A DNA stretch of 64,000 nt, taken from positions 248,001 through 312,000 of the forward strand of contig WHVD01000057.1 of NCBI GenBank assembly GCA_015178975.1, given 5' to 3'. The notes beneath the pieces were generated by a model. The model did no database searches, was not told where the DNA came from, and saw nothing but the letters and a program-made list of their open reading frames with translations. The first letter of the stretch is position 1. Each line of letters starts with the position of its first letter. This DNA comes from Hysterangium stoloniferum (Eukaryota > Basidiomycota > Agaricomycetes > Hysterangiales > Hysterangiaceae). This document shows, in pieces, positions 25,218 to 52,350 of the stretch. A program made the translations under genes and the position numbers.

Positions 25218-25489
25218 GGTTGGCCATAAGATTCAGCTTCCAAACCACAGTCTTTACGGTTCACGTCTCCACCTTCAATGCTTTTTCGACCTTCATTTTC
25301 CACGGTGTAATTGGTTACTTTCGTTTTATTATTTCTCTGGGGAGCGGAGATGTGGTGTTTAAATAGGTACAATATAATGGCCGTGTTCATATCAAGGTTC
25401 TAAAGTTACAATACATACACTAACTAATGTGTCTAGCTGGTCTGCTGTGGCCACAGTTTCTCAGCATGCTCGAAGATAATACACGTTTT

Positions 25490-25645
25490 TCGCTTTGCAT
25501 CTCACCTCTATCGACATAGTGTCGTAACCCTCGTTAAATCTGAACCTGAAGGAGGAAATCAAATACCTCTACTTTGTCGCGGACACCATCTGCTGCAATT
25601 GCAGTTGGACCGCCTCCACATCCCGGCTCGCTTTGATAAATTCTC
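25490..25645 (+). pseudogene. P450 last-exon fragment carried by the duplication
   Basis: Copy of the final P450 exon and the end of the preceding intron (compare 20410-20565). Small deletions break its reading (the CCCGCCCCCTCG stretch is shortened to CCCTCG and ACTTTTGTC to ACTTTGTC). With no upstream exons it cannot encode a P450. Confidence 0.85.
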
Positions 25646-25861
25646 TCATGCTATTGCATTATTCCATAGTATCATCCGCAGTACGCGCATTGTATCACTT
25701 GAACTCATCGGATGTTGTATGTTAGTTTATTACAGCAAATTAAATCGGTCATGAAGTTTAAAATATATAAACGGCTGCTCTATTTTTGGCTATGATGCAG
25801 CGGATCCTTACATAAGCGTCCCTGGTCACACTACTCAGCCATCTACACCAGCACTTGTGAT

Positions 25862-26953
25862 ATGCAAATCCTAGTAGAGTATGAGAGTTCGGATGAGGAA
25901 TATCATTCACCTCTTATTAGTGAATCTTCAATACTACCGCACCCCCCTATTATCCAACAGAAACGGTGAGTTTGTGTCCCCCACACACGGCGAATCTGAA
26001 GCACGGGTCGCACAGGAAACTACCCTCTCTCCCATCTTATTTAATTATCAAAACTCCTACGTCTGACCCCGCTCAACACCAAGGTCGTGTTAGGACTCAG
26101 CCGCACATGGATAGTCAATGCGCCTGCTATGTATACGTACCTATAACATTAGAGTCAGGAGGTTTTGGTAGACTTATAAAACGAGCCTTGAAGTATGCCA
26201 TTAGAGCCGAACCGGCAGTTCACCCGATTATTGAAAACTGGGGTAGCCAGAAAGGTCAGGATATTGACGGCGAGTTGCACATTAGTTTAACACGCCCCCA
26301 TATACCTCCAACACCACCAGAGAGAGGGCTTCAAGCGTGCAGTGATGGAAGTAGCGGCTTAGCATCCCCCTTGAATCTCTTTTATTCTATGACCGGTGAA
26401 ACAACCTATTTTAATAATTACACAGCTTTCTCGCATCTTTTGCAACCTTCGCCACTTTTGATAATGATGAAAAAACTCGAGCCTTTCTAGCCCTGGAAAT
26501 TGGCGCGGGGCATTCCCAGGTAGGTATCCAGCCACACTGTTCTCTCCGCGTATACAATCATGTGCGGGATTTTAACTGAATATACATCTTTTTTGTCTGC
26601 TAGCTTCGCCAGATGACGGAAAGCATCACTCCCACGCTGCGCTCATTATATCAGAAAGAATACTACACAGAGCCGCGCTTTCATGCTTCTATCGCGTGGG
26701 CACTGCTCGATCCTACATCACAAACGCAGCTTGTTTCTACACCTGAAGTTCTTGCAGATTCAGATGTTGAACTTTTGTCCGCATCTCAGCCATCTAGCGA
26801 TCCAACTTTTATCACTCTGCCAGAGTTTCCCCGTATTCTTTTTACGTTTAACGATAAATTGGGGGATCGACTACGCGCGTTGGTATTTTCGACGTGATGA
26901 CCATCAATTCGCATCGGAAGGAAGTCAGTACTTATGCTTTACGGGGTAAATAG
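25862..26953 (+). pseudogene. USB1 pseudogene (unit 2 copy)
   Basis: Copy of the USB1 gene at 21296. The start, intron 1 and the first HxS motif (GELHISLTRP) are kept. An extra base directly after that motif (CGCCCCCATAT against CGCCCCGTAT) shifts the frame. The exon 2 donor CCCCGTGAGT has become CCCCTTGAAT. Deletions in the last exon (near 26833 and 26876-26915) shift the frame again. The second HxS (RFHASIAW) remains readable. A host gene copy that has lost function; no alternative splice I can see restores the frame. Confidence 0.88.
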
Positions 26954-28376
26954 CCCCAGTGGTACATTCTTGCTGCGGTCTAGCCTACATTGATGGCCAT
27001 GGTTATTCCGTATAATAGTTCACGCAACGCAAGAATTTAAGCTTGGATCCCGAAGAGGAAGGTTTATTTATGCTGTTCGCCTTACGCGGCGCTTTCGACA
27101 ATTGTGTATATACCAATTCACTACTAATACTAGCCCTCATGAGGCTTTCATTTTCATTTGGACTGCCTAGTGAGGCGATAGTTATTTTAAGCGAGAGTCA
27201 TCTTTAATTGGGACAATATAGATTGCTTGAACTGATTCATGGGGGGTGTTCTTGAAGGCTAAAGAATGCAGTCTTCTTCATTGTTATCGTTTTCGGGCTT
27301 AAGTCAATGCGACATATAGTCACCTATCATGTGAGGCGTGATACTAAGCATAGCAAATAGTCCAGACTATTTCTCGGTCATATCTTCAGCAATTATAAAA
27401 ATGGCTGTCCGGTCAATTAATTAAATTTCTGGATATGTCTAAGAAAAAATCCGGCAGGCGTAGTAATGTCTACCACATGGAGTACAACGGCACGTCATCG
27501 TTAACCTAATAGGGCAACAAGTACGGAATATATTTATACAAAAAAATGAATGGTGAATCTACGAGCTCGAAGCGAAACTGACAATGAGTGCGTTTTTCCG
27601 ATCTTTTTCCGCGCTGATCTTTCAACTTCGTTTTTTTTACTACAGATCATGGGAGCGTTACTGTACCTCGGAATGCCGATCTGTCAACTTGTTTGATTTA
27701 TGGAACCTTTTTTTCCAGGGATCATTTGAGTCTACTAAACATACCCTTGCTATCGCGTACCTTACCGATCAGCGAAGGTAGCCTGAGGACTGCACATACA
27801 GCGCCACCTTTCGTCTCTGGAGGATTTGACGCACCCATGAGCACCTTTTCTGTGCCTGGATCCGGGGGAAAAGGCCGTCACTTCATACCATTACTTTTCC
27901 CCCGAAAGACCGGCAACTGTGAGAGGGACTGTCAATGCTTCAGTACGACTTGCTCATAAATCTCTGGGAAACCGTGAGAGGGGCTGTCAATGTTTCGGTG
28001 CGACTTGCCCATCAATCTCCGGTCCATCGTTTGGGCCTGGTATACATCACTGAAATCATAAAAAGCCCTTTCGATCATGGTTTCAGAAGCAGTGTCCCTT
28101 TACGCATCATAGGACGCATAGCCGTACTCTATCACCAACCATGTTTAACAAAACGAAAGACGCAGAGAGGAAACCGTGTTCTGACAGTGTTTGACGCTGC
28201 CGGGGCTTGTCGAATGATTCGCTGTCCGTATGAGAGTTACCCATCAAGCAGTTTTGATCGATATCGGGCCATTATTGCGTCTTGTCCCTATATAAGGAGA
28301 GCAGGCTCATCCTTTCCAACAAGTTTGGGATTTTCACTGCCAAGCAGAGTGTTGCTTTTCTCCACCATGTCCTTCA
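26954..28376. other. Intergenic of unit 2
   Basis: Counterpart of 22395-23768. It contains an additional local duplication at about 27918-28020 (the GTGAGAGGG(A/G)CTGTCAATG stretch twice). No gene is supported. Confidence 0.5.
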
Positions 28377-29873
28377 ATACTACCCAATCGTCTGGGTCGG
28401 CATGCCTTCTTGATTATCTGCAGGCAGAGGGTCCAATTCGATGCCCTATCACACCGGACATGGTGGCCTCATTAAATCTAGCAGACAATTTCGATGCGTT
28501 TTTCAGCGCATATTGTTTGAATCCCCAGCGTGGCGATCACTGTCCATACGGGTATTGTCCAAACTCTGAGGTTGCAGGTCAGTGTTCCCCAATTTTGTGC
28601 TGTTTGAAATATATGTCTGAATATTCGTGAAGGCCCTCTTGTTCGGCTCTCCGCGTATGCAACCAACTTCTTTGTTGGTAAGATCATTTCAGCGATAATA
28701 AATTATAGACTAGTCAATTGACTTGCATTTCAGCTATTCTAATAATATGTTATGAGCGTAAAGAGTTCAATGAGCGTAAAAAGCTCAATGAGCTCAATGG
28801 GCGTAAAAAGCTCAATGAGCTCAAAGAGCTCAAAGACATGTTCTGGGTGCAGTTATTTGGGATATATTCGTTGTTGTTGACTAGTGCTTGGTCTATTTTT
28901 CGTCACCAGCTTACACGGATCCATGCTATTCTGACAATGGCTACCGTGGGCTCACCGTTTTTGTACATGCAGTGAGATCGTCGTTGTGGAAAAGAAAGCA
29001 TCACTTAGAATCTGTCGTTGGCAAGGGGAAACGGGTTACTCGAGGATTCGTTTTGCTCGCTTTGTTCATCTGGATTGGATTGAACGTCTACATTTTGCTT
29101 CCTCCACACCTCTCAGATTTTCAACAAGAAGCGTGCGAAAGGAACAATCGTGTTGTCGAACACTTCCTTTTCTTGCCTGTTTTGATTGTTGTTGACATGC
29201 CTCATTGGGCACAGTGTCTGGCGGTGTTACCTTTCGTATTGACGGTGGTAACATGGATCACCGTTATTCTCATAAAACGTCGGAAGATATGGCCAAAGGG
29301 CGAAGCATTCACGCCTCTCACCTTCTGGTACCTTTATAACTGTCTTTGAAATATCTTAACTTTAAACATTAATATTTTATTCAGGGGTGACATAAAAAAG
29401 CACTATCCATTCGTTCACTTCGTAACGATAGTGCTTATTCCCACTGCCTATTGGATAGCAACGATTGAAGTCGGTGTGTTGAAGGCGGGGACGAGGGATA
29501 ACCATCTATCTGCAAGTTTTGGTCAGGTCCGGTTTGCTCTTACACTTTGTCCACATGATTATTGAACAGCTATTTCAAGGTTCTAGCTATGTTTGTAGCT
29601 GTACCGCCGTTCCTATCTGTCCTTAACTATTATGGCGAATTTAAAGGCTGGTTTTTCGGTCTCACGTGGGTTCGCCTCCTTACAACAAGAAAATATAGCC
29701 CTGAACATCCCCCCGCCATCAATCCGTCAACAGACACCCTTGTTGGGCCCGAGAAAGTGCCTGCCACCGCGCAACGCCTCAAATTAACGTTATCTAGGGG
29801 TGAATCTTTTCTCAACATGCCAAAAGATTTATTGTGGCCAGAGAGTGCTCTGCCAGTGGTTCAAAACCCTTAG
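28377..29873 (+). pseudogene. Membrane-protein gene copy, frame broken (unit 2)
   Basis: Copy of the gene at 23769. Exons, splice sites and the C-terminal exon are well kept (MSFNTTQSSGSACLLDYL start; VLAMFVAVPPFLSVL near the end). Two differences stand out. At about 28750-28836 a short charged motif (ERKEFN, ERKKLN, GRKKLN, KELKD) has expanded as imperfect repeats, adding about 18 codons in frame. At about 28955 a 13-bp loss relative to copy 1 shifts the frame and leads to a stop within a few codons, before most helices. Copy 1 is therefore the likely working gene. Confidence 0.8.
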
Positions 29874-30139
29874 GGTTGGCTATAAGACCTAGCTTCCAAA
29901 CCACAGTCTTTACGGTTCACATCTCTCCCTTCCTGTCTTTTTCGATCTTCATTTTCCACGGTGTAATGGGTTACTTTCGTTTTAATATTTCTCTGGGGAG
30001 CGAAGACGTGGTATTTAAATAGGTATAATATAATAGCCGCGTACATATCAGGTTCTAAAGTTACAATACATACACTTGCCAATGTGTCTAGCTGGTCTGC
30101 TGTGGCCACAGCTTCTCAGCATGCTTGAAGATAATACAA

Positions 30140-36017: not shown

Positions 36018-36757
36018 TGTTAAGAACAGAAAACTGACTAATGTCAGTAGGCCAATGGGAACCAATCAGAAGGACTTGGCTTCAACTTATGTGCTGCACC
36101 CTCACAAGTTACTGTCAGGTGTCCTTAAATTTCGGGTGGGTGAAGACTAGTCCTATTGAATCCCTCATGGTGAGTTACCAATCGGAACCGAAGGATAAGC
36201 CAAGTGTTGGGCCGAGGGGTCAGAGGCCGGAGATGGGCAAGTGCACACAGAGGTGGGGAGCGGGATACTTAGTGTAAGGCTTATAGAGATGTATGTGGAT
36301 GTTCTGAGTTGATATTCTGATTGCCTAGTAACTACAACTACAGCGGATTTATATACAAGTTATTGGTGTCTAGAAAATACTAACTAAGGGAAGAGTGGAA
36401 ACATTATTGACAAATAAACTTGACTAGGAACTGGAAGGTTACAATAAGTTTGGAGGCCATGAATTAACCAAGAGCAGAATTACAAGAAAAGGAAATAGTC
36501 CACAGGTTACAAGTATATACGGGTATATGTGAAATATAGAGTAGAACAGATCATCATAATAAAAGGGGACATATCAAAGTATAACCAGATAGTGTGAGTA
36601 TAATTTGACAGGGGTGTAAACAGGTTTGATCGCCATGAAGGCATACATCAGTGTCAGGCAACTGATGGCTTCTGATGTGATGACTTGATCAATAACTAGA
36701 AATGTCAGTTGGCAGTAATATCCTCAGGGACTGTCAGGTTGTGACACAGTCGTAACA
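36018..36757 (-). repeat. LTR (3') of the older family-A element
   Basis: 740 bp, TGTTAAGAACAGAAAACTG to CAGTCGTAACA on the plus strand; the element reads on the minus strand, so this is its 3' LTR. Confidence 0.85.
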
Positions 36758-36996
36758 GTATCCCCCCTTTTGGCTGAAATCCCAAGGAGGCTGAAAATCT
36801 AGATCTTGTACGTAAAACTTGTCGGGTACAGGTAGTGTGTCAAAACATCATGTGACCTGGTAAAAATTTACATATAAAAATTTGAGGGGTGCTGGCACTT
36901 GAATTTTAACTCTTCTCCCTCCACCATGATGACCATGGGATCGAAGCCCTTCCCATCCAGGCCAACCGTCACCCCCGTATTGGGTCTGAGTGGACC

Positions 36997-37719
36997 TGTT
37001 AAGAACTAAAAACTGACTAATGTCGGTGGCCGACGGGGACCGATCGGGAGGACTTGGCTTCAGCTTATGTGCTGCGCCCTCGCAAATATCCGTAGGTTGT
37101 CCTTAAATTTCAGACAGGCGAAGACTAAATCCTAAGAAGAACCTTTCGGCGAGATACCGATCGGAACCGAAGGACAAGTCAAGTGTCGGGCCAAGGGATT
37201 TGGGCCGAGAGTGGGCGAGTGCATGCGAAGGCGGAAGGGGGATTCTTCTAGTATGAGACTGCTACAGACGTATGAGGGTATTCTGAGTCGATATTCTGAT
37301 TGCCTAGTAACTACAATTACAGCGGGTTCATATACAAGTAACAGGCATCTGGAAAATACTAATGGGGAGAAGGGCGGAACACGGTATTAACAATAAGCTT
37401 GACTAGGAACGGGAAGTTTATGATTAGTTCGGAGGCCGATGATAACCGAGAGCGGGATTACGATAAAAGGAAATGGTTCAAGGACTACAAATATAGATAG
37501 ACATATGCGAAACATAAGATTGAACAGATCAACATAATAAAGGGGACGTATCAAAGTTTGACCAGACAATACGAGTTATTTTGACGTGGGCGTAAATGGA
37601 GTTTGATCTTCGCGAAACATTCGTCAGCTTCGGGGCCGATGGTTTCCGAGAGGATGACTTGAAATGTTGACAAGTGGCGATAACCTCGGGGCCGATAGGG
37701 TTGCGACACGGTCATAACA
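36997..37719 (-). repeat. LTR (3') of the young family-A element
   Basis: 723 bp, TGTTAAGAACTAAAAACTG to GGTCATAACA on the plus strand. Confidence 0.88.
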
Positions 37720-37735
37720 GTATCTCCCCTTTTGG
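37720..37735 (-). promoter_or_regulatory. Polypurine tract of the young element
   Basis: On the element's sense (minus) strand the sequence AAAAGGGGAGATAC stands directly before the 3' LTR, as expected for the plus-strand priming site. Confidence 0.65.
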
Positions 37736-37836
37736 CCGAAATCCCAAGGAGGCCGAAAATCTAGATCCCGTATGTAAAAACTTGTCGGGTATGGCTGGGT
37801 GTGTCAAAACATCATGTGACTCGGCAAAAGTTTGCA

Positions 37837-37844
37837 TATAAAAG
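37837..37844 (+). promoter_or_regulatory. TATA box of the antisense accessory gene
   Basis: TATAAAAG lies about 50 bp before the plus-strand ATG at 37891, preceded by CATCATGTGAC. The older copy keeps the same arrangement (CATATAAAAATTTGAGG at about 36872). Confidence 0.6.
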
Positions 37845-37890
37845 TTTGAGGGTCCCTGGCGCTTGAAATTTCACTTCCCTTCCTTTAACC

Positions 37891-38868
37891 ATGACCATAG
37901 GCTCGGGGTCAAAGCCCTTCCCAGTTAGGTTAACAGTTGCGCCCATGTCGGTGCCGAGTGGTACGGCGAACGCGAAGGAGCGTCGGCGTATACTCGAGCA
38001 GAAGAAAAAGGCACGTGAAGAGGAGGAGCGGAAGGAGAAGGAGGAGTTGGTGGCCATCGAGGCCGAGGAGAAGAAACAGGTGGCAGAAGAGGCCGCGCGC
38101 AAGCACTGGGAAGCAGTGCTTGCAAAGAACAAGCAGCAGGAGGCCGATCGGGCGCAGGAGGAGGCGGCGAAAAAGAAGCGGGAGGGAAAGGTGAGTTGGC
38201 TCTGGTGTCTTTTGTGAACCTTACTGACAATATTTGTTAGCGCAAGGCTGCAACGCCTTTGGAGTCTGATGACGAAGAGGGAGAGGAGGACGAGGAAGAT
38301 GCACCGGGGCCGTCGAGCCCCAAGGTGGGTTCGGTTTCCTAAAATAAGACTTCCTAAATAATTTTTCCTATAGAAACAAAAGCAGGCCCCCAAGGCGGGG
38401 CCCGAAAATGACCCCAAGTGCAATTGGTGCACGAAACGGGGTCGAACCTGTCATCCCCGGACCAATGGTCGGGGCCGCACTTGTCAAGAGTGCGCTGATC
38501 AGAAGCTTGGGTGTGTTTTCCCGGGGGCTGATGGCTCATTCCAGGAGCGACAGGCTGATGCTCTAGAAGAGCAAAACTGCCTCATGCGGACCTACTTCTC
38601 GGAGACGAGTCGGTACCGATATGAGATGTTGCGACAACAAGGGCTCATAACTGAGCAATTGCAACTCTTGGGTGTCGGGCTGGAGAAACAGACCAGTGTT
38701 ATCGAGTCTCTCGGTGGTCAACTTGAGCAGTATTTGGAAGTCTCGAGTTGCGGTGGGCATGAAATTGGGGTTTCGGAGAAGGTCGGTGGTGTGGTATCGG
38801 TGGCTGTCGGTGCGGAGGAGGGTTCGGAGGCCGGAGAGGAGGGAGAAGTTGTAGAGGGAGAGACTTAG
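37891..38868 (+). CDS. Antisense accessory gene of the LTR element: coiled coil plus Zn2Cys6-type cluster
   Basis: Lies between the end of pol and the 3' LTR, on the strand opposite to gag-pol. Reads open across two phase-0 introns (38190-38239, GTGAGT to TTAG; 38324-38372, GTGGGT to ATAG). Order: MTIGSGSKPFPVRL, a Lys/Glu-rich coiled coil (about residues 30-100), an acidic stretch (DDEEGEEDEEDAPG), then a cysteine cluster spaced C-x2-C-x6-C-x10-C-x2-C-x6-C (CNWCTKRGRTC, then CQECADQKLGC), the Zn(II)2Cys6 pattern of fungal transcription factors. A second heptad-like region (LRQQGLITEQLQLLGVGLEK) and an acidic tail ending EVVEGET follow. Function unknown; DNA binding is inferred from spacing only. 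A decayed homologue with the same six Cys sits in the older copy. Confidence 0.75.
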
Positions 38869-38963
38869 ATAGTGAAATATATCGGTTTTTCTTTTAAACA
38901 AACAAATCATAGTGTGAAAACATAAGGCATAGTCGGAAAAAGGTCGGGTACCGCGTGATAGAC

Positions 38964-41900
38964 TTATAAGGAATTGAGAGGACCGGGTTTGTTCGGATAA
39001 GCTTGGTGAAACCCTAAAACGATTTCCGAGGCATTACCGAGCTCTGTAGCTAGGATCCATGAAGTTTCTTCATCTGTACCTTCATAGCCAGCCCATTTGA
39101 CCAAATAAAGTAATTTGCATGAGCGTCGGCGATTGTCGATTTTTGAGTCTAGGATTTCTGATATCTCAAATTCGGGTTCCCCATCAATAATCACGGGTGG
39201 AGGTGGTGGTTGTATGCGATCCGGTATACTGTTAGGAACACAAGGTTCTAACATAGATACATGAAATACCGGGTGCACTGCACGCATGTTGTCAGGGAGC
39301 TGAAGCGTCCATGAAAGTGTGCCGGCTTGTGCTATAACTTCAAAAGGACCTAAATATTTTTCAGAGAGCTTCTTAGAAGGTCTAGTAGTTCGGAAAAACT
39401 CGGCTTTAACGAATACTCGGTCTCCGATCTTGAAATCAGGAGGTGGAAGTCGGTTTTTATCCGCAGACCGTTGGTATCGTTCTTGAGCCATTGCGATAGT
39501 TTTACGAAGTTCTTGATGTAGCTCATCGAGGTTTGTAACAAAGTCTTGAGCACGGGCAGATGCGAGATCGCGTTCCGGGTGGATTGCGATGTTGGGGTTG
39601 TAGCCTTTATTTGCGAAGAAAGGTGAAATGCCAGTAGTGGCATTCGGTGCATTGTTGTATGTGAATTCGGCCAGCGGTAGTAGTGATTTCCAATTGTCTT
39701 GTTGATAGTTGCAATAGACACGGATGTATTGCTCCAAGGTTTGATTCATGCGTTCGGTTTGTCCATCGCCTTCTGGGTGATAGCCCGAAGTGAAATGTAG
39801 CTTCATGTCTAGTGCTTTTCCGAGTGACCTAAAGAAGTGAGAGACAAACTCGGATCCGCGATCGGATGTGACATGCGATGGAACGCCATGCTTGGAAAAT
39901 ACATGGGTAACAAATAATTCAGCTAACTGTACAGATGTTATTGTGTCATATGTTGGAATGAAAATACTTTGCTTTGAGAGCCGATCCACAACAACTAGGA
40001 TTGCTGTGTGACCTTCAGATGCCGGTAGGTGCTCGATAAAATCCATAGAAATCGAGTTCCAAGGTTTTTCCGGTATCGGTAATTGTTTGAGTAGGCCATA
40101 TGGTTTGTGTCGCTGTGATTTAGAGCGTAAACACGTAGTACAAGATTTACAATAGTGCTTAACAAAATCTCGGATGCCGGGCCATGTATATTCTCTTCTA
40201 ATGAGTGAGAGGGTCTTATTGAGGCCGAAATGTCCCGAGATTGGGTGGTCATGCTTATGTTGTAGGATTCACAGCCGAAGGGTGTCGGAATCCAGTACAT
40301 AAATGCGATTGTCAAGTCTAATGAAACCTTGTGAGTCTAATGACCATCGAGGTTGATCGGGGTCGGACGGGTTATCGAGGTGTGCTTTGGTGACTGGGTC
40401 TAATGGAATTGCCGATAGTATGTCTTGATGTAACTTTTCGGTATCCATAAGGAGAACACTTTGCAAGACTGGATGAATGAGGTAAGTGGCTCGGATAGAT
40501 GCGGACAGTTGTTCCGATGAAAACATAGGCTTGAAATTATGCGGATTAACTGTGGCGTAGTCGCTACTCCCCTCTTTAGGATAGACGTCCCATCGTCTAG
40601 TCATAGCGTCGGGTTTTCCACCAAGGCGGCCGGGACAGAAGCGAATTACCATGTTGAAAGTGGAGAGGTATTCGGACCATCGAGCTTGTCGACGGGTGAG
40701 AAGTTTTGTGGTTGAAAAGTAAACTAAATTTTTGTGGTCTGTAATAACATCTACCGGGTGGGCCGAGCCTTCCAAATAATGTCGCCATGTCTTGAAAGCT
40801 TCAAATATTGCAAGTAATTCCTTATCGTGAACGTCATAGTTGAGTTTGGGCGCCGAAAATGTGCGAGACAGAAAAGCTACTGGGTGTACTTCACCATCGG
40901 TGTCCAGAATGGACAATATCGCGGCAAGCGCATAGTCCGAAGCATCAGTTTCCACGATGAGTTGAACGTCGGGTTTCCAGTGCGACAAAATAGGGGCGGA
41001 TGTAAACGCACTTTTCAATTCCTGGAATGCCGATCGGCATTCTTCGGAGAAATTCCACGGGGTGTCTTTGCGAGTAAGACGAGTGAGCGGAACGGTAATT
41101 TTTGAGTAATTGTGAATGAAACGGCGATAAAAATTGGCGAAGCCTAAAAAGGATTGAATATCTTTAACCTTTCGGGGTTCCGGCCAATCTTGAATGACTT
41201 GAATTTTAGCGTCGTCCATGCGGAGACCATCGGGTCCCATCATGAAGCCTAAGTATTCAACCGTGTCGACATCAAAAGAACATTTTTTACCATTCGCAAA
41301 AAGACCATGTTTTCGGAGTCTTCGGAGGACTTCACGGACGTGTTCATCATGAAGTGTAGGGTCTTCGGAGAAGATGAGGATGTCGTCTAGGTACACAATG
41401 ACAAAGACGTCAAGGAGGTCGGAAAAGACGTCGTTGATAAAACGTTGAAAGACCGACGGAGCGTTGGTGAGGCCGAAAGGCATTACTAACCATTCAAAGG
41501 AGCCATAGCGAGTGCGAAAAGCCGTTTTCCATTCGTCGCCTTCGGCGATCTGAACCAAATGATAGGCGTGTTTGAGATCTATCTTTGTATAAATTCGGGC
41601 CTTCCGAGGGGCATCGAGTAAATCGGAGATTAATGGTAATGGGTACTTGTCTTTTCGAGTGATCGCATTTAGTCCTCGAAAATCAACGCAAAGTCGAAGG
41701 GAACTGTCTTTTTTCCGAACGAATAGGACGGGGGCTCCATAAGGAGACTTTGAGGGTCGGATAAAACCTATAGCCAAATGTTCGTCCAAGAAATCTCGGA
41801 TAGCTGATAATTCGGACTGCGAGAGAGGATAAACTGGGCCTAGGGGCGGATGTGAACCATCTTCAATATCAATTTTCAAATCGTAAGGCCTGTGAGGGGC

Positions 41901-42776
41901 GAGTCGATCGGCTTTTTGTTTACTGAAGACATCTGCAAATTCATGGTATTTTTTAGGAACACCTTCTAAATCTGCGATCGGTTCGGTCACCGGGGATGCA
42001 AAGCGACCGGTGACTTCGTCAACTTTAAGATTGACTGTAAATGCTCAGGAGCCGTCCAACTTGATGGCTCTCATAAAAGCTGCGGCGTTTATTAGAGAGA
42101 CGGGCAGCGGAGAGCGCGGATTTGCCACGGGGGCCGGAGGTGCTGTAGAGGCCATATTTGCCGAAACAGGCGGAAGCGGACCAGTCGTATCGGGTGCCGA
42201 TGGGGTTCGGAAATGGATACTGCCCAATACCCAATCAATCAACGGATTATAGCGGGTGAGCCAGTTATGTCCTAGAACCACGGAGCAACTCGAGTCCAAC
42301 TGTGTTACAAAAAACGTAACTGTCTGAAAGGTTCCACACGGGAACCGAAGTCGGAGTTCGCAGGCTTGCGAGATTACGGAGTTTGAGGTACCATCAAAGA
42401 GTCGGAGCGGAATCGGATCTATTGCATAGGTTTTTAACTGATTTTTTCGGGAAAAACTTGTATCTATAAAACAATGGGTTGAACCTGAATCTATGAGAGC
42501 TCGAAAAGTGAAACTCCCGAGAGGTTCCGAAGTAAGATTTATGAACAAAGAATTAGGATCATACAAGGCGGATGCGTTAAGATGACAATTTTCCGGTGTG
42601 CGAGGAGATTCAATGCAACTCTCCAACCGCACGGAATCCAGAGAGTTGCTTAATCTTTTTTCGACTCGGCAGCCGGCTTGGCCGGTTGTGAGGTTGTGGC
42701 TGTATTGGCTGATCGGGCTTTTGTGGCTTTTGGGCAAGCAGCGACTCGGTGTCCGGGATCTGCGCACAACAAACAA
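38964..42776 (-). CDS. pol region of the young chromovirus
   Basis: Domains on the minus strand, right to left: aspartic protease (about 42.0-42.8 kb, with ALIDSGSTHCFID), reverse transcriptase (about 41.2-41.9 kb, with [16 protein letters not shown]), RNase H (about 40.6-41.1 kb, with VETDASDYALAAIL), integrase core (about 39.4-40.05 kb, with DRGSEFVSHFF and HPEGDGQTERMNQTLEQY), and a C-terminal chromodomain (38.97-39.2 kb, with LYLVKWAGYEGTDEETSW) that would steer integration to marked chromatin. The region is open over most of its length, with about two interruptions. Gag and protease readings overlap in different frames, as in families that use frameshifting. Confidence 0.85.
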
Positions 42777-43948
42777 AGGTTGTTGTCCATTCGGCGTTGC
42801 TTTTCCTGTGGTAGGAGCTTGCCATCGGAGCCGAGTTTGCCAGTTAAGTCGGGTTTGTCTTTGTCTTGAGACTTATTCGACTGTTTGCCCTTGCCTTTTT
42901 TGTCGTTAGACCCTTTGTTTTCGGACTTCTTATTGGAAGTCGAGTTGCCAGTGTTATTGGTGTTTTGATTACCAGACTTGTTGGCATTCTTGTTGTCCGA
43001 TGATTTTTTGTCCGACGGGTTTTCACGACTGATTTCCAAACGTTGTTCCCAGTATTGAGCATCTGCGTTTTGGGCTTTCAGGCGCATGAGAGGGAGGGTT
43101 TTCAGCTTGCCGGTCTCTCCTTTGGAAACTTCGTCTTTGAGGCGAGACGGAAGGCCGGAGTAAAACTGGTAACGGAGGGCCGAATCGCCCCAGTCGCAAC
43201 GCGCGGCGAGGTTGTTGAACTGGACGATATAATCGGTGATGCGCTGAGTGTCTTTCATTTTGAGATTAGAAAGCGCGGTTTCGGCATCGCCAGTTTGGTC
43301 GTAGGGACCGAAGTTGGTTTCGAGTTCCTCGACAAAAGCATCCCAATCGTGGAGCCAATCGGGGTCTTCGGAGGTGAGGCCAGAAAATGCGGGTTCAAAC
43401 CAGGCTGCTGCGGAATCCTTAAGGTATGAGAGTGCGAAGTTTACCTTTCGGTCATCCGTTGCGAATGCAGCCGGGCGGTCCCGAAAGTTGAATCGACATT
43501 GCATAAGAAATGTCGGCAATTTCTTCAGGTTTGAGCCAGTAAATGGCTTGGGTTTGTTGACTCGGGTTTGCCCAGGTTCCTTTTCCTTGATATTGCTTTT
43601 AAGGAATTCATTAAGGGATCCTAGAGTACCTGAAAACAATTCCCATGTTTCTTCAGGGTCGAGAGCCGGTTTCTTCTTTGCGGACTTCTTGGAGCCACTA
43701 GCCTGAGGTTGGTCGCCATCCTCGGGTTCGTGTTCCGAAACTGGTTGATTGTTAATCTCCTCAGTTGCTTCGGGATCGGTTGCTTCAGTTACTTCTTCAG
43801 CATCGCCGGTAATCTCCACAAAGCGAGATTCTTCGGAGGTTTCTGGTAGCGGAGTTCTCTGAGTAGCTCGGGCTGTATACAGAAAAGGAGACTTGAGAGT
43901 GGAAGATTCTGCTTCGCCGCTAGGCTTGGCATTTTTCCTCGGAGGCAT
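42650..43948 (-). CDS. gag of the young chromovirus
   Basis: 432 residues starting MPPRKNAKPSGEAESS. An acidic N-terminal part is followed by the retrotransposon gag core (WFEPAFSGLTSEDPDWLHDW, ITDYIVQFNNLAARC) and a zinc knuckle near the C-terminus, CLLCADPGHRVAAC (C-x2-C-x4-H-x4-C). It forms the particle that packages element RNA. Open throughout. Confidence 0.88.
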   Translation of the reverse strand: MPPRKNAKPSGEAESSTLKSPFLYTARATQRTPLPETSEESRFVEITGDAEEVTEATDPEATEEINNQPVSEHEPEDGDQPQASGSKKSAKKKPALDPEETWELFSGTLGSLNEFLKSNIKEKEPGQTRVNKPKPFTGSNLKKLPTFLMQCRFNFRDRPAAFATDDRKVNFALSYLKDSAAAWFEPAFSGLTSEDPDWLHDWDAFVEELETNFGPYDQTGDAETALSNLKMKDTQRITDYIVQFNNLAARCDWGDSALRYQFYSGLPSRLKDEVSKGETGKLKTLPLMRLKAQNADAQYWEQRLEISRENPSDKKSSDNKNANKSGNQNTNNTGNSTSNKKSENKGSNDKKGKGKQSNKSQDKDKPDLTGKLGSDGKLLPQEKQRRMDNNLCLLCADPGHRVAACPKATKARSANTATTSQPAKPAAESKKD

Positions 43949-43973
43949 GTTTAGACGGAAAATGTGAGTGTGA

Positions 43974-43984
43974 AATCAGAATAT
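43974..43984 (-). promoter_or_regulatory. Primer-binding site with self-priming complement
   Basis: Two bases from the 5' LTR the sense strand reads ATATTCTGATT. It is the exact complement of AATCAGAATAT at 44298-44288 in the LTR, where the element RNA is predicted to begin. No match to a tRNA 3' end is evident. Confidence 0.65.
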
Positions 43985-43986
43985 AC

Positions 43987-44716
43987 TGTTAAGAACTAAA
44001 AACTGACTAATGTCGGTGGCCGACGGGGACCGATCGGGAGGACTTGGCTTCAGCTTATGTGCTGCGCCCTTGCAAATATCCGTAGATTGTCCTTAAATTT
44101 CGGACAGGCGAAGACTAAATACTAAATCCTAAGAAGAACCTTTCAGCGAGATACCGATCAGAACCGAAGGACAAGTCAAGTGTCGGGCCAAGGGATCGGG
44201 GCCGAGAGTGGGCGAGTGCACGCGAAGGCGGAAGGGGGATTCTTCTAGTATGAGACTGCTACAGACGTATGAGGGTATTCTGAGTCGATATTCTGATTGC
44301 CTAGTAACTACAATTACAGCGGGTTCATATACAAGTAACAGGCGTCTGGAAAATACTAATGGGGAGAAGGGTGGAACACGGTATTAACAATAAGCTTGAC
44401 TAGGAACGGGAAGTTTATGATTAGTTCGGAGGCCGATGATAACCGAGAGCGGGATTACGATAAAAGGAAATGGTTCAAGGACTACAAATATAGATAGACA
44501 TATGCGAAACATAAGATTGAACGGATCAACATAATAAAGGGGACGTATCAAAGTTTGACCAGACAATACGAGTTATTTTGACGTGGGCGTAAATGGAGTT
44601 TGATCTTCGCGAAACATTCGTCAGCTTCGGGGCCGATGGTTTCCGAGAGGATGACTTGAAACGTTGACAAGTGGCGATAACCTCGGGGCCGATAGGGTTG
44701 CGACACGGTCGTAACA
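43987..44716 (-). repeat. LTR (5') of the young family-A element
   Basis: 730 bp. Its sense strand (minus) has TATATGA at 44331-44325, about 30 nt before AATCAGAATAT at 44298-44288, a good TATA-to-start distance. Confidence 0.88.
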
Positions 44717-44721
44717 GGACC

Positions 44722-45650
44722 CTCAAATGCATAAGAGTGTCATCGGCTTCTCAAAGAGAAGAAGAAGGCGTGTGAGGAGGAGGAGTGTAAAGAGAAGGAG
44801 GAGCTGGAGGCAATAGAGTTGGAGGAGAAAAGGTTGGCAGAGGAAGAGGCTGCGTGCAAGCATTGGGAGGCCATGGTTGTGAAGAAAAAGCAGCAGGAGG
44901 CTGATCGGGTATGAGAAGAGGAGGCGAGGAAGAAGCGGGAGGGTAAAGTAAGTTGGAGGTTTCCCATTTTGACTCTTCTGACTTTCTTTTAGTGCAAGGT
45001 GGTGACACCATCAGAATCTGATGATGAAGAGGACGAGGAGGACGAGGAGGATGTACTGGGGGCCTTCAAGCCCCAAGGTATGTTCAGACTCCTAGTATTT
45101 TAGTTTTTCTAATAATTCTTTTTTTGTTTTCAATTATAGAAACAGAAACAGGCCCCCAAGGTGGGGCCCAAAAATAACCCAAAGTGCAACTGGTGCACCA
45201 AATGTGGTCGGACTTGCCATCCATGGGTGAATGGTCAGGGCCACACCTGTCAAGAGTGTGCCAACCAAAAACTCAGCTGTGCCTTCCCAGATACCGACAG
45301 GAATGGGTCTTATCAAGAGTGGCAGGCAGATGCCTTAGAGGAGCAAAATTGGCTTATGCGCACCTACTTCTCGGAAATGACTCAGTTCCGGTTCAAATAA
45401 TTGCGACAACAAGGCCTGATCACCAAACAACTGTGACTATTGAGCATGGGGCTGGAGAAACAAACCAGTGCCATAGAGTCTCTCAGGGAACAACTTGAAC
45501 ATTATTTGGAAGTGTTGAGTTCTGATGAAGCTGGGCCTGGAGTTGGGATATTGGGGAAAGTTGGTGAGGAGGTGTTGGTGGCTGTCGGTGAAGGGGAAAA
45601 CTTGGAGGCTGGGGAAGAAGGAGAGGTCATAGAGGAGACTTATAGATAGT
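44722..45650 (+). pseudogene. Decayed accessory gene of the older family-A copy
   Basis: Homologue of the antisense gene at 37891-38868; its first part lies left of the young insertion (about 36930-36996). The cysteine cluster is kept with identical spacing (CNWCTKCGRTC and CQECANQKLSC), as are both intron positions. It is broken. Confidence 0.75.
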
Positions 45651-46720
45651 TGAAATATAATGGTTTTCTTTTAAAACAAAACAAACAAAATACAAAAACA
45701 TAAGACATAGTCAGAAAAGGGGTCAGATGCCACATGAAACTATAGAGAACCTAAGGGACCAGGTTTATTCAGATATGCTTGATGAAAGCCTAAGATGATT
45801 TTTGACGCATTGCTGAGTTCTGTAGCTAGGATCCATGAAGTTTCTTCATCTGTACCTTCATAGCCAGCCCATTTGACCAAATAAAGTAACTTGCATGAGT
45901 ATCGGTGATTGTTGATCTTGGAGTCTAGGATTTCTGATATCTCGAATTTGGGTTCTCCGTCAATAATCACAGGTGGAGGTGGTGGTTGTATGTGATCCAG
46001 TGTATTGTTAGCAACACATGGTTCTAACATAGATACATGAAATACTGGGTGCACTGCATACATGTTGTTGGGAAGCCGAAGTGTCCATGAAAGCATGCCA
46101 GCTTGTGCTATAACTTTAAAGGGACCTAAATATTTTTCAGAGAGCTTCTTAGAAGGTCTAGTAGTTCGGAAAAACTTGGCTTTAATGAATACTCGGTCTT
46201 TAATCTTAAAACCAGGAGGTGGAAGTCGATTCTTATCCGCGGACCATTTGTGGATAGGCTCACAAAGCAAAGTATTTTCATTCCAACATATGACACAATA
46301 ACATCTGTACAGTTAGCTGAACTATTCATCACCCATGTGTTCTCCAAGCATGGCATTCCATCGCATGTTGCATCTGATTGCAGATCTGAGTTTGTCTCTC
46401 ATTTCTTTAGGTCACTCAGAAAAGCACTAGACATGAAGTTACACTTCACTTCAGGCTATCACCCAGAAGGCAATGGCCAAACCGAACATATGAATCAAAC
46501 CTTGGAACAGTACATTCGTGTCTATTGTAACTATCAACAAGATAATTGGAAATCACTACTACCGCTAGCCAAATTTGCATATAACAACGCACCAAACGCC
46601 ACTACTGGCATTTCAGCTTTCTTTGCAAACAAAGGCTACAACCCCAATATCACAATCCATCCAGAATGCAATCTCGCATCCACCTGTGCTCAAGACCTTG
46701 TTACAAACCTTGATGAGCTA

Positions 46721-48160
46721 CAGTGACCTCAAAAACTCTTTCCATGTTGACCCTAAATGCAGTGTTTGAAGAACACTGCCTTACAGCATGGGAATTATGC
46801 TTAGCTTTGGTGGAGTCATACATAGTACATCCTCTTGGCTACAATATTGCTCCCTGGGTCACGTGATTCCGATCACAGGGTGTAGAGATATGATTAATTT
46901 AAAACAGCAATACCATGGAAAGGGTTTTTGCACTTTTGAACTGATGACTAGGATCTCAGTCAAATCATAGAATAATGGCTATTATTTGTTGGTACAAATA
47001 GATATATACATGTAAATAGTATGTCTGAGTTTAAAAAAGTTCTCACACTTCCACACTTCTTGATTCCTAACCACCATCATGGTCAGATCCCTCTCTCTTA
47101 CTCAACAGAATACCATCCTCTCCTTGCTTGATTCTGGCCACTCTGGTGAAGCTATTGCCAAGAGAACTGGTGTTAGCCCATCTGCCATATCCAAACTTCA
47201 CTCCAAACATTGTTCTCTCCTTCCCAAAGCTGTTGGGGGTCGTCCCTCAAAGCTTTCTCCTACAAATATTCGACATGCTCAGCATCTCATCACCTCTGGC
47301 AAAGCTGAAAATGCTGTCCAAGTGACCAAAGCCCTTACCAACATTATCAACCAGCCCCTCTCTGCCAGTACAGTTCGCCTCCACTTGAAGAAAGCTGGTA
47401 TGGAAAAGGGCAGGTAAAGGCCTTAATGATAGGCTGGTAGAGGGAACTCTGAAGTTTGGAGGAGGTTCTCTTATGATGTGGGGTTGTATGACTTGGGAGG
47501 GAGTTGGCTTTGCTAGCAAGATTGATGGTAGGATGGATGGAGACCTCTATCTTGAAATTTTGAAGGATGAGCTCCAGCAAACCCTGGAGTATTATGGTCT
47601 CAATCCTTCTGACATCATCTTTCAGCAAGATAATGACTCTAAGCATACCTACAGGCTGGTCAAGAACTGGCTAGAAGAGCAAGAATTCAGGACTATGGTT
47701 TGGCCTGCACAGTCCCCAGACCTGAATCCTATTGAACATCTCTGGGGTTGTCTCAAGCAGAGCATGAAAACCCCCCAATGGAATTCATGAATTGTGGGAA
47801 AGGATTCAAGTGGAGTGGGATAGAATACCAGTTGAGGAGTGTCAGAAATTGATTGAAAGCATGCCTAGAAGGGTTCAGGCAGTGCTTAAAGCAAAAGATG
47901 GTTATACCAAGTACTGATAATATGTAAATACCCTGTTCAGTTCAAAAGTGCAAAAACCCTTTCCATGGTATTGCTGTTTTAAATTAATCATATCTCTATA
48001 CCCTGTGATCGGAATCACGTGACCCAAGGAGCAATATTGTAGCCAAGAGGATGTACTATGTATGACGCCACCAAAGCTAAGCGTAATTCCCACTCTGTAA
48101 GGCAGTGTTCTGCAAACACTGCATTTGGGGTCAACATGGAAAGGGTTTTTGAGATCACTG
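46721..48160 (+). mobile_element. Tc1/mariner element 2, internally deleted
   Basis: 1440 bp with TA duplications (46719-46720, 48161-48162) and terminal inverted repeats of about 230-250 bp starting CAGTGA(C/T)CTCAAAAAC. It sits in the integrase region of the older chromovirus. The terminal sequences differ from Tc1-like element 1, so it belongs to a related but separate family. Confidence 0.87.
47079..47790 (+). pseudogene. Tc1 transposase lacking the first catalytic segment
   Basis: The first open part (47079-47417) has the helix-turn-helix domain (MVRSLSLTQQNTILSLLDSG; ISKLHSKHCSLL). The second (47473-47790) has the later catalytic motifs: Asp in FQQDNDSKHTYRLVKNW and Glu in SPDLNPIEHLWG. 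The segment that should carry the first Asp (WSDE-type, present in the other Tc1 copy) is missing around 47415-47440, so this is an internally deleted, non-autonomous copy. Confidence 0.85.
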
Positions 48161-51100
48161 TACATCAAGAACTTCGAAAAACTATCACAATGGCCCAAGA
48201 ATGATACCACAACTAGGATTGCTGTATGACCTTCAGATGCTGGTAGGTGCTCGATGAAATCCATAGAAATTGAGTTCCAGGGTTTTTCCAGTATTGGTAA
48301 CTATTTGAGTAGGCCATATGGTTTGTGTCGCTGTGATTTAGAGCGTAAACATGTTGTACAGGATTTGCAATAGTGCTTAATGAAATCTTGGATGCCAGGC
48401 CATGTATATTCTCTTCTAATGAGTGCAAGAGGTTTATTGAGGTCAAAATGTCCCGAGATTGGATGGTCATGCTTATGTTGTAGGATTTGCAGCCAAAGGA
48501 TGTCAGAATCTGGTACATAGATGTGGTTGTCAAGTCTAATGAAACCCTGTGAGTCTAGTGACCATCGGGGTTGATCGGGGTCGAATGGGTTATCGAGTTG
48601 TGCTTTGGTGACTGGGTCTAATGGAATTACTGATAGTATATATTGATGTAACTTTTCGGTATCCATAAGGATAACACTTCACAAGACTGGATGAATGAGG
48701 TAAGTGGCTCAGATAGATGTGGACAGTTGTTCAGTTGAAAACATAGGCTTAAAGTTATGCAGATTAACTGTGGCGTAGTCGCTACTCCCCTCTTTAGGAT
48801 AGATGTCCCATCATCTAGTCATAGCGTCGGTTTTTCTACCAAGGTGGTCAGGACGGAAGCGGATTACCATATTAAAGGGGGAGAGGTATTCGGACCATCA
48901 GGCTTGCCGACAGGTGAGTAGTTGAGAATGTCGTCTAAGTACACAATGACATAGATGTCGAGGAGGTCAGAAAAGACGTCATTGATAAAATGTTGAAAAA
49001 ACAATGGAGCATTGGTGAGGCAGAAAGGCATCACTAACCATTTGAAGGAGCCATAGCGAGTGCAAAAAGCCATTTTCCACTCCTCACCTTCGGCAATCTG
49101 AACTAAATGATAGGTGTGTTTGAGATCTATCTTTGTATGGATTTGGGCCTTCCAAGGGGCATCAAGTAAATTGGAGATTAGTGGTAACGGGTACTTATCT
49201 TTCCGAGTGATCACATTTAGTCCTCAAAAGTCAACACAAAGCCGTAGGGAACTGTCTTTTTTCCAAATGAATAGGACAGGGGCTCCATAAGGAGACTTTG
49301 AGGGTCAGATAAATCCTATAGCCAAGTGTTCATCCAAGAAATCTCAGATAGCCAATAATTCGGACTGCGAGAGAGGATAAACTGGGCCTAAGGGCAGATG
49401 TGAACCTTCTTCAATATCAATTTTCAAATCGTAGGGCCCGTGAGGGGCAAGTCAATCAGCTTTTTGTTTACTGAAGACATCTGCAAATTCATGGTATTTT
49501 TCTGGAACACCTTCCAAATCTGCAATCGGTTCGGCCACTGGGGTTGCGAAATGACCAGTGGCTTTGTCAATTTTAAGATTGACTGTAAATGCTCGGGAGC
49601 CTTCCAACTTGATGGCTCTCATAAAAGCTGCAGCATTTATTAGAGAGATGGGAGGTGGAGAGCTTGGATTTGCCATGGGGGCTGGAGGTGCCGTACAGGC
49701 CATATTTGCCGAAACAGGTGGAGACGGACCAGTCGTATCAGGTGCCAATGGGGTTCGGAAATGAATACTGCCCAATACCCAATCAATCAATGGATTGTAG
49801 TGGGTGAGCCAGTTATGTCCTAGAACTACAGAGCAGCTCGAGTCCAACTGTGTTACAAAAAATGTAACTGTCTGAAAGGTTCCACATGGGAACCGAAGTC
49901 AGAGTTCACAGGCTTGTGAGATTACAGAGTTTGAGGTACCATCAAAAATTCAGAGTGGAATTGGATCTATTGCATAGGGTTTTAACTGATGTTTTTGGGA
50001 AAAACTTATATCTATAAAACAATGGGTTGAATCTGAATCTACAAGAGCTCAAAAAGTAAGACTCCTGAAGGGTTCTGAAGTGAGGTTTATAAACAATGAA
50101 TTTGGATCATATAGGGCAGATGCGTTAAGATGACAATTTTCTGGTGTGCAGGGAGATTCAACGCAACTCTCCAACCACACGGAATCTGGAGAGTTGCTTA
50201 ATCTTTTTTTGACTTGGCAGCTGGCTTAGCCAGTTGTGAAGTTGTGGCCATATTGGCCAATCGGGCTTTTGTGGCCTTTGGGCATGCGGGAACTTGGTGT
50301 CTGGGATCTGCACACAACAAACAAAGGTTGTTGTCCATTCAGCATTGCTTTTCTTGTGGTAGGAGCTTGCCATCAGAGCTGAGTTTGCCAGTTAGGTCGG
50401 GTTTGTCCTTGTCTTGAAACTTATTTGACTGTTTGCCCTTGCCTTTTTTGTTGTTAGAACCCTTGTTGTTGGACTTCTTATTGGAGTTCAGGTTGCTGGT
50501 ATTGTTAGTGTTTTGATTACCAGACTTGTTGGCATTCTTGTTATCTGATGATTTTTTATCCAATGGGTTTTCACGACTGATTTCTGAGCATTGTTCCCAG
50601 TATCAGGCATCTGCATTTTGGGCCTTTAGATGCATGAGGGGGAGAGTCTTTGGTTTGCTGGTCTCTCCTTTGGAAACTTCGTCTTTGAGACGAGATGGGA
50701 GGCTGGAGTAAAACTGGTAATGGAGGGCTGAATCGCCCCAGCCACAATGTGCAGTGAGGTTGTTGAACTGGATGATGTAGTCGGTGATGTGTTGGGTGTC
50801 TTTCATTTTGAGATTAGAAAGCACAGTCTCAGCATCACTGGTTTGGTTGTAGGGGCCAAAGTTTGTTTTGAGTTCCTCAACAAAAGCGTCCCAATCATGA
50901 AGCCAATTGGGATCTTTGGAAGTGAGGCCGGAGAATGCAGGTTCAAACCAGGCTGCTGTGGAATCCTTGAGTTAAGAGAGTGTGAAGTTTACCTTTCGGT
51001 CATCCATTGCGAAAGCAGCTGGTTGGTCCTGAAAATTGAATTGACATTGCATGAGAAATGTCAGTAATTTCTTTGGGTTTGAGCTGGTGAAAGGTTCAGG

Positions 51101-51541
51101 TTTATTGACTCAGGTTTGCCCAGGTTCCTTTTCCTTGGTGTTGTTCTTAAGAGAATCGTTAAGGGAACCTAAGGTACCTGAGAACAATTCCCATGTCTTG
51201 TCGGGAGAGAAATCTGGTCTTTGTTTTGCAGACTTCAAGGACCACTAGCCTGAGGTAAGGACTGGTCACTATCCTCGGGTTTGGGTCCTGGAGCTGACTG
51301 ATTGTTAGCCTCTTCAGGTGCTTCAGGTTCAGTGGCTTTGGTAACTTCTTCAGCATCGCCAGTAATTTCCACAAAGCAGGATTCTTCAGAGGGTTCTGGA
51401 TGTGGGGTTTTTGGAGTAGCTTGGGCTGTATACAGGAATGGAGATCTGAGAGTGGAAGATTCTGCTTCGCCACTTGGCTTGGCATCCTTCTTCCTCAGAG
51501 GCATTATTGATGGAAAATGCGAGTGTGAAATCAGAATATAC

Positions 51542-52263
51542 TGTTAAGAACAGAAAACTGACTAATGTCAGTAGGCCAATGGGAACCGATCAGAAGGACT
51601 TGGCTTCAACTTATGTGCTGCACCCTCACAAGTTACCATCGGGTGTCCTTAAATTTTGGGTGGGCAAAGACTAGTCCTATCAAATCCCTCATGGCGAGTT
51701 ACCAATCGGAACCGAAGGATAAGCCAAGTGTCAGGCCAAGGGGTCAGATGGGCAAGCGCACGCAGAGGCAGGGAGTGGGATACTTAGTGTAAGGCTTATA
51801 GAGATGTATCTGGGTGTTCTGAGTTGATATTCTGATTGCCTAGTAACTACAACTACAGCAGATTTATATATGAGTTATTGGTGTCTAGAAAACACTAACT
51901 AAGGGAAGAGCAGAAACATTATTGACAAATAAACTTGACTAGGAACTGGAAGGTTACGATAAGTTCGGAGGCTGTGAATTAACCGAGAGCAGAATCACAA
52001 GAAAAGGAAATAGTCCACAGGTTACAAGTATATACGGGCATATGTGAAACATAGAGTAGAACGGATCATCATAATAAAAGGGGATGTATCAAAGTATAAC
52101 AAGTATAATTTGACAGGGGCATAAATGGGGTTTAATTGCTGTAAAGACATATGTCAGTGTCGGGCAACCAACAGCTTCCAATGCAATGACTTGATCAATA
52201 ACTAGAAACATTAGTTGGCGATAATATCCTCAGGGACCATCGGGTTGCAACACAGTCGTAACA
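51542..52263 (-). repeat. LTR (5') of the older family-A element
   Basis: 722 bp ending CAGTCGTAACA before the CTTCT duplication. The same primer-site complement as in the young copy is kept (ATATTCTGATT at 51539-51529 against the LTR). Confidence 0.85.
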
Positions 52264-52350
52264 CTTCTCCCACTTGCAGAATTCCAGTACAACAACCATA
52301 TCCATGCATCTACACAACAGACACCATTTATGCTAGACTGTGGACATCAT

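Follow-up and report, generated by a model that had tools for sequence, protein, structure and literature searches.

An antisense gene with two introns, under selection in a large Ty3/Gypsy chromovirus family of the fungus Hysterangium stoloniferum

Background

What does a gene do that a retrotransposon carries on the strand opposite to gag and pol, and can such a gene keep its introns when the element transposes? Antisense accessory genes of LTR elements are already known in plants and in deltaretroviruses, and their function within retrotransposons is an open question. An earlier note on a 64,000-nucleotide stretch of the Hysterangium stoloniferum genome (the window; coordinates below are positions in it) drew attention to such a gene in a fungal element. 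We find that a large self-priming Ty3/Gypsy chromovirus family carries it as a regular component, that it is under selection and that its two intron sites are conserved. Here a fungal element with near-identical recent copies combines a constrained antisense gene with introns that are intact after transposition. The element may carry its own regulator, and spliced, TATA-driven genes of this kind within repeats may be mis-annotated as host genes.

Anatomy of the element

The young element occupies positions 36997-44716, with gag-pol on the minus strand, and is flanked by the target-site duplication GGACC (36992-36996 and 44717-44721). Its 3' LTR (36997-37720, TGTTA...TAACA) and 5' LTR (43987-44716), both on the minus strand, are 97.3% identical. 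Gag-pol consists of four minus-strand ORFs with domains in Gypsy order: gag (42650-43948), aspartic protease (42045-42776), reverse transcriptase with RNase H (40269-41990) and the 3' end of pol, with integrase, SH3_Tf2-1 and chromodomain (38964-40046). The chromodomain (PF00385) at the integrase C terminus lies just above the Pfam cut-off (25.4 bits against 25.1); with SH3_Tf2-1 and integrase present as well, the element was rightly labelled a chromovirus by domain content.

Tf1/sushi elements are self-priming, with a primer-binding site (PBS) complementary to the 5' end of their own RNA. In the young element the PBS ATATTCTGATT (sense strand; 43974-43984, minus strand) lies 2 nt behind the 5' LTR and is complementary over 11 nt to the LTR at the inferred start of R, AATCAGAATAT (sense strand; 37291-37301, minus strand), a match reached by 0 of 500 shuffles of the LTR letters. 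The identical 11-nt PBS is also found in the older copy described below and in L099, a locus of a second subfamily. Self-priming as in Tf1/sushi therefore fits, and the complementarity puts the sense transcription start at 37301 in the 3' LTR, which is sense position 419 of the LTR. TATA spacing supplies this estimate of the RNA 5' end: by hand count in the young element, a TATA-like TATATGAA begins 33 nt before this start. The 11-nt self-priming PBS, the chromodomain integrase and SH3_Tf2-1 are all features of the Tf1/sushi group, in which we know of no antisense gene.

For the comparisons below we divide the LTR into a proximal part (36997-37530), comprising U5, R and the promoter-proximal U3, and the distal U3 (37535-37720, left edge approximate), which shares the divergence of the antisense gene when the window element is compared with L096, a copy of a second subfamily. 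Adjoining the 3' LTR is AAAAGGGGAGATA (sense strand; 37721-37733, minus strand), which we take to be the polypurine tract (PPT).

Structure of the antisense gene

The region between pol and the 3' LTR, 1.24 kb long, holds the antisense gene on the plus strand. Conservation counts are from an alignment of 70 rows, made of 68 loci, the window copy and the older copy (locus L070, with a long insert, was left out), and refer to rows with letters at the site. A TATA box, TATAAAA (37837-37843; 63 of 66 rows), stands 116 nt within the internal region, outside the LTR. Exon 1 (37891-38190; 300 nt, 100 codons) opens with an ATG at 37891 that is present in 66 of 67 rows, and its product is rich in Lys and Glu and coiled-coil-like by eye. 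It is followed by intron 1 (38191-38240; 50 nt, GTGAGT...TAG; GT in 70 of 70 rows, AG in 69 of 69), the acidic exon 2 (38241-38324; 84 nt, 28 codons) and intron 2 (38325-38373; 49 nt, GTGGGT...TAG; GT in 69 of 69, AG in 68 of 68), both introns being in phase 0. Exon 3 (38374-38868; 495 nt including the stop at 38866-38868) encodes a six-Cys cluster, a predicted long helix and an acidic tail. The cluster, C-X2-C-X6-C-X10-C-X2-C-X6-C (38419-38514), keeps its Cys codons in 70, 70, 70, 70, 70 and 69 of 70 rows. The product in the young element is 292 aa long, and the gene is convergent with pol, with 95 bp between the stop codons (38868 and 38964). In all of this the coordinates agree with the earlier description of a plus-strand gene opposite gag-pol, between pol and the 3' LTR, with its own TATA box, two phase-0 introns, an acidic stretch and six Cys spaced as in Zn(II)2Cys6 clusters.

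The lead between the PPT and the gene contains two conserved blocks that are candidate cis sites. One (37734-37769) has two direct copies of GGCCGAAA (37734-37741 and 37751-37758), and the other, TGTGTCAAAACATCATGTGAC (37800-37820), lies upstream of the antisense TATA. Bins from 37741 to 37820 are kept at 0.91-0.99 in 21 divergent copies. Adjacency to the PPT could be an alternative reason for the conservation of the GGCCGAAA repeats.

The young element has landed in an older copy of the family (36018-36996 and 44717-52263; target-site duplication CTTCT), within exon 1 of that copy's antisense gene. The older gene is thus cut into its lead and start (36759-36996, plus strand) and a remainder (44722-45640, plus strand, end approximate) and has in-frame stops at codons 29, 89, 213 and 225. 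It still retains TATAAAA, the ATG, both intron sites and the six Cys, much as had been noted.

Copies across the genome

Searches of the organism's own genome covered 111 Mb in 554 contigs and found hundreds of candidate copies of the antisense gene; in the protein search, 150 of 410 candidates were scored and were 71-100% identical. The same genome has 21 matches to DUF6534, a domain typical of mushroom-forming fungi, as suits an agaricomycete. The earlier note had taken confinement to the two window copies as telling against its reading, and the many own-genome matches rule such confinement out. At 64 of 72 loci (69 of the window-element family plus L096-L098) the order is LTR, gene, pol, which bears out, within the H. 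stoloniferum genome, the idea of the gene as a stable component of the family. Six of the exceptions (L014, L057, L058, L059, L064 and L069) have no preceding LTR or no following pol within the stretch. At L098 the sequence read ends before pol, and at L097 homology ends within exon 3 and the sequence read stops short of pol. The sample of loci is non-random: L010-L038 are the top-scoring copies after the window's own, and for 40 further loci the search results show no exon 3 stop in 22 and stops in the other 18. We therefore claim no share of intact copies.

Throughout the 70-row alignment the splice dinucleotides are kept wherever letters exist. The whole six-Cys motif is found in one frame at 67 of 69 loci (the exceptions are L052 and L053), two of the 67 having a stop within it. 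Of 69 loci, 63 fit the search pattern; in these, intron lengths vary (49-59 and 43-62 nt) and exon 2 is 84 nt long in 58. In the divergent set the introns differ from the window copy by 0.21 and 0.25 on average, the exons by 0.13-0.15. The same is seen in 20-bp bins, with CpG-type changes left out, for the 21 copies whose exon 3 differs by more than 20%: bins that touch an intron have identities of 0.45-0.79, exon bins 0.71-0.94 apart from a single one at 0.60, and the stretch 37721-37820 has 0.90-0.99.

A junction-spanning search for intronless copies (best 150 of 703 candidates scored) listed matches that begin at or near exon 3. One locus, L060, is without exon 2 and most of both introns; the loss is deletion-like and the sole such case among the 70 aligned rows. 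Positions 1330-2007 of L060 form a single open frame of 226 aa that joins part of exon 1 to exon 3, with in-frame stops further up in exon 1.

Numerous near-identical young copies are found no more than a few kb from contig starts (for example, in C62, C134, C170, C314, C543, C519 and C188). Assembly breaks therefore probably occur at this family.

Selection on the coding sequence

We compared variants seen in a single copy with those common to at least two copies, using the 59 of 70 rows with full coverage. Singleton variants are mostly decay after insertion and have a neutral look. With CpG sites masked, nonsynonymous, synonymous and stop changes in the antisense gene number 78, 28 and 8 among singletons and 33, 85 and 0 among shared variants (Fisher p=2.6e-13). 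The same test on the C-terminal part of pol gives 171, 55 and 10 against 20, 48 and 2. Without CpG masking the contrast in the antisense gene is weaker and still holds (92, 30 and 8 against 131, 130 and 4; p=7.4e-7), and it loses significance when the 27 youngest copies are taken by themselves (p=0.85 unmasked, 0.34 masked). Judged by these substitution patterns, the antisense gene is under constraint similar to that of pol.

Reading frame was used as a control. In frame 0 the shared nonsynonymous-to-synonymous ratio is 0.38. Four of the remaining five frames have ratios of 3.4-6.8, and the fifth, which reads the opposite strand with the same third positions, has 0.60 and five shared stops. 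Pairwise dN/dS to the window copy is 0.09-0.42. Purifying selection, whose absence the earlier note had held would count against the gene, is thus present across copies. A chance ORF is excluded by the frame control, by the contrast of introns and exons and by the comparison of shared and singleton variants, and we regard it as nearly certain that this is a real, selected protein-coding gene. A minus-strand ORF of 206 aa (37812-38432) was considered as a gene in its own right and rejected, because the best minus frame has five shared stops and is less constrained.

Among the copies that diverge most (such as L055-L078), the antisense gene has about three times the synonymous distance of the pol end (about 1.0 against about 0.3), while copies such as L039-L046 are without this excess. 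The excess (37721-39800) would fit an exchange of pol between lineages.

A second, very recent subfamily

The junction-spanning search also found L096 (C1:274700-277500), an intact gene encoding 298 aa, whose two introns, 53 and 48 nt long, occupy the same sites. Its protein is identical to the window protein at 190 of 301 alignment columns, with pN 0.20 and pS 0.69 between the genes and mismatches by codon position of 57, 67 and 150 in 289 codons. The two LTRs of its element are 99.86% identical (one gap, no mismatch), the target-site duplication is ACTAC, and at least seven places including L096 match the 517 nt around its exon 3 at 100% (rounded). By these sequence signs, the element carrying the L096 gene moved very recently. 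Introns had been predicted to survive retrotransposition, and L096, with its 99.86% identical LTRs, keeps both, as expected of introns that are antisense to the genomic RNA. Among 41 listed matches (40 of 223 candidates scored), 37 fall at 84-100%, two of these being pieces of one place, and four at 69-70%, with none between.

Divergence between L096 and the window element is uneven. About 93% of positions match in the proximal LTR (39 mismatches in 529) and the pol end (45 in 627), against 29-34% mismatch in the distal U3 (55 in 160), the lead (48 in 168) and the gene with its introns (315 in 968); distal U3 and proximal LTR differ in divergence at p=1e-15. Nearly unchanged are the PPT-adjacent DNA with the two GGCCGAAA copies, the block TGTGTCA.AAC.TCATGTGAC and the TATA box. 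L097, by its gene an older relative of L096 (85%), has a proximal LTR about equidistant from L096 and the window element (80% and 83%, main piece), and recombination between lineages is therefore the simplest reading of L096. On that reading L096 would be a mosaic, with gene, lead and distal U3 from one lineage and pol end and proximal LTR from another.

Across 55 copies, the exon distance matrix correlates with those of distal U3 (0.97), pol (0.94), lead (0.90) and proximal LTR (0.88), where the copies are non-independent and the differences small. The co-divergence rests on one recombinant, L096, read across the LTR, the gene and 636 bp of pol. Neutral recombination can also join gene and U3 in this way, and the single recombinant, the small differences in correlation and the non-independence of the copies are all compatible with it. 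The two subfamilies, which share the pol end and carry gene-plus-U3 blocks about 30% different, make recognition of the element's own promoter directly testable.

The predicted protein

Zn(II)2Cys6 clusters follow the spacing C-X2-C-X6-C-X5-12-C-X2-C-X6-8-C. The cluster of the antisense protein fits this pattern (PF00172), and to that extent the label Zn2Cys6-type given to the gene stands. As a statement of family membership the label is too strong, as Pfam Zn_clus is below its cut-off in every copy scanned: the gathering cut-off was never reached, 16 of 32 copies gave sub-threshold matches when E was allowed to rise to 10 (the best at E 0.0058), and the L096 protein had no Zn_clus match. A genome search with PF00172 placed one row at a known copy (C203:26125, E 1.02), below the cut-off.

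Ten copies were scanned singly and seven list Zn_clus. In six of the seven, residues 12-27, the first half of the cluster, align to positions 16-31 of the profile, its second half; in the seventh it is the second half of the cluster, residues 37-48, that aligns, to profile positions 20-31. By this alignment, the first half of the cluster looks like the usual second half. Profile-profile alignment (hhalign) of the antisense protein with one host Zn cluster gave the ordinary order (Prob 64), which speaks against a plain swap of the halves.

A helix is predicted after the cluster, at residues 54-125 of exon 3, with block-mean pLDDT of 95-98 over residues 61-120. The cluster itself is modelled at low confidence, and a second model is of low confidence overall. 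Given the sub-threshold Zn_clus matches and the poorly modelled cluster, we therefore call the protein Zn2Cys6-like and not a member of the family. PDB holds nothing significant by sequence, nor by fold with the first model. TRP28 (PF04195) and bZIP are absent from Pfam matches at E up to 10, and in prokaryote genome contigs and viral contigs no relatives of the protein were confirmed. Elsewhere in the genome, contigs C56, C115, C209, C308, C309 and C37 have several close-set Zn_clus matches, which look like multi-cluster Cys-rich genes in related loci.

Comparison with known systems

Parallels in layout are found in plants. Retand, Grande and RIRE2, according to the available text of PMC11963269, have conserved antisense ORFs between pol and the 3' LTR with TRP28 (PF04195); the Grande antisense protein is nuclear, and a role as DNA-binding regulator has been proposed for the plant antisense ORFs. 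The element described here is likewise a Ty3/Gypsy element with a conserved opposite-strand gene in that place, in a fungus. The plant systems belong to the Retand lineage, which is non-chromovirus, and have TRP28 and a pol-LTR region of 2.9-6.6 kb (PMC11963269, same text), whereas the fungal element is a chromovirus with a 1.24-kb region, a six-Cys cluster, two introns and no TRP28 match. The word 'intron' is absent from the main text of that paper.

Among deltaretroviruses, HTLV-1 has the antisense gene HBZ and HTLV-2, HTLV-3 and HTLV-4 have APH genes, and HBZ, APH-3 and APH-4 down-regulate LTR transcription (PMC10186651, available text). Here too an antisense gene lies at the 3' end of a retroelement, spliced there and predicted to be spliced here. 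By the same text, HBZ has a bZIP (coiled-coil) domain, whereas the DNA-binding candidate here is the Cys cluster, and the HBZ and APH promoter is in the 3' LTR, whereas the TATA box here is inside the internal region. The likeness is one of layout, and no sequence relation is claimed. Fungal Zn(II)2Cys6 regulators (PF00172) likewise have six Cys of permitted spacing followed by a coiled coil; unlike them, the antisense protein is encoded by a retrotransposon, falls below the Pfam cut-off and, in single scans, mostly aligns by its cluster to the second half of the profile.

VANDAL elements are DNA transposons of the plant Arabidopsis. Their VANC proteins, as described in the available text of PMC5735166, are transposon-encoded non-transposase proteins that evolve along with their own non-coding target. 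The likeness is in working principle alone: an element-encoded protein that co-diverges with the element's own non-coding DNA. In a brown alga, a gene lies opposite the transposase of a DNA transposon (PMC12477816, available text). The parts available of a survey of fungal LTR elements (PMC3248453) and of a screen for fungal co-option (PMC10799480) mention no such antisense gene. Among the matches listed from searches of the CC-licensed PMC literature, none presents in its title or opening lines of abstract a fungal element with an antisense zinc-cluster gene, and reports beyond these may exist.

Proposed role and alternatives

We propose that the gene has a TATA promoter of its own, next to the 3' LTR on the internal side, and that the transcript made from it would be spliced to encode the 292-aa protein, with a putative basic/acidic coiled coil, an acidic segment, the Zn2Cys6-like cluster and a second coiled coil. 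The protein may enter the nucleus, dimerise and bind DNA. About 530 bp of U3, PPT and lead separate the sense start inferred at 37301 from the antisense TATA at 37837, the two being divergently oriented. On this shared region the protein would act, tuning gag-pol transcription through U3 and its own expression through the lead, either as a repressor, like HBZ, or as an activator or anti-silencer, like VANC. A DNA-binding protein that diverges with the distal U3 is best read as the element's own regulator. We give this self-regulator explanation as a whole a probability of roughly 0.55, and put at even odds that the element's own U3 and antisense promoter are the protein's main target. The earlier suggestion that the protein controls transcription of the element or the host may hold, with the element's own promoter as the likelier target. 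In U3 and lead, CGG/CCG triplets are without enrichment; TCGG/CCGA does show enrichment, as it does in the proximal LTR too, and the signal is non-specific.

A bolder version of self-regulation joins the gene for a Zn-cluster, coiled-coil DNA-binding protein and the distal U3 into one regulator-and-target module that recombination has moved between lineages, with pol and the core LTR shared. The cluster might be a Zn2Cys6 variant with a first half of second-half type, and the self-control, HBZ-like or VANC-like, would have a separate fungal origin. We hold this version tentatively, as less probable than not. Somewhat unlikely, too, is an anti-silencer akin to Arabidopsis VANC, binding the element's non-coding region and countering methylation or heterochromatin, with protein and target co-diverging between subfamilies. 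The gene and distal U3 do diverge together, as VANC proteins co-evolve with their targets in the available text of PMC5735166, and copies L039-L078 have an excess of CpG to TpG changes (26.5% of CpG C against 9.4% of other C), as expected of methylated copies, so that silencing by methylation is plausible. Such decay bears on methylation indirectly, however, and homology to VANC was looked at through Pfam only.

Self-regulation also has to be weighed against readings in which the element's promoter is not the target. Zn2Cys6 proteins are usual fungal transcription factors, and the protein might be aimed at host genes as a nuclear factor that alters the host state. HBZ also acts on host factors (PMC10186651, available text). 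Co-divergence with the element's U3 gives no cause to invoke host targets, however, and points, as far as sequence can, to the element's own promoter; we consider a host-directed role improbable. Nor do we expect the protein to be a Gag-like or nucleocapsid-like accessory with a structural or replication function, its Cys cluster binding a nucleic acid that is not promoter DNA. A basic coiled coil and a zinc cluster can, as a general matter, bind RNA too, and the protein is known from a model with a low-confidence cluster and no PDB fold match; but the Cys pattern differs from a CCHC knuckle, and a separate antisense promoter would be odd for a virion component. It is highly improbable that the antisense RNA is what matters, whether by forming dsRNA or by transcriptional interference across pol's 3' end, with the ORF incidental. 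The two genes do run towards each other, and an antisense transcript would be able to pair with the genomic RNA, yet codon constraint in one frame, zero shared non-CpG stops and exons kept more than introns largely refute this.

Surroundings in the window

In the older element, a 475-bp piece of integrase (46248-46722) is inverted relative to the young copy and adjoins inverted repeats at 46709-46944 and 47937-48169 (94%). Further LTR copies of the family lie at 52350-53101, 55761-56501 and 56976-57697, the first and third inverted. A separate reverse transcriptase fragment (PF00078; 31066-31569) is not part of the two nested elements. Positions 20402-30138 form a tandem duplication with a period of about 4.6 kb, whose main pieces are 88-93% identical and which contains an HVSL (PF09749) ORF at 25966-26490.
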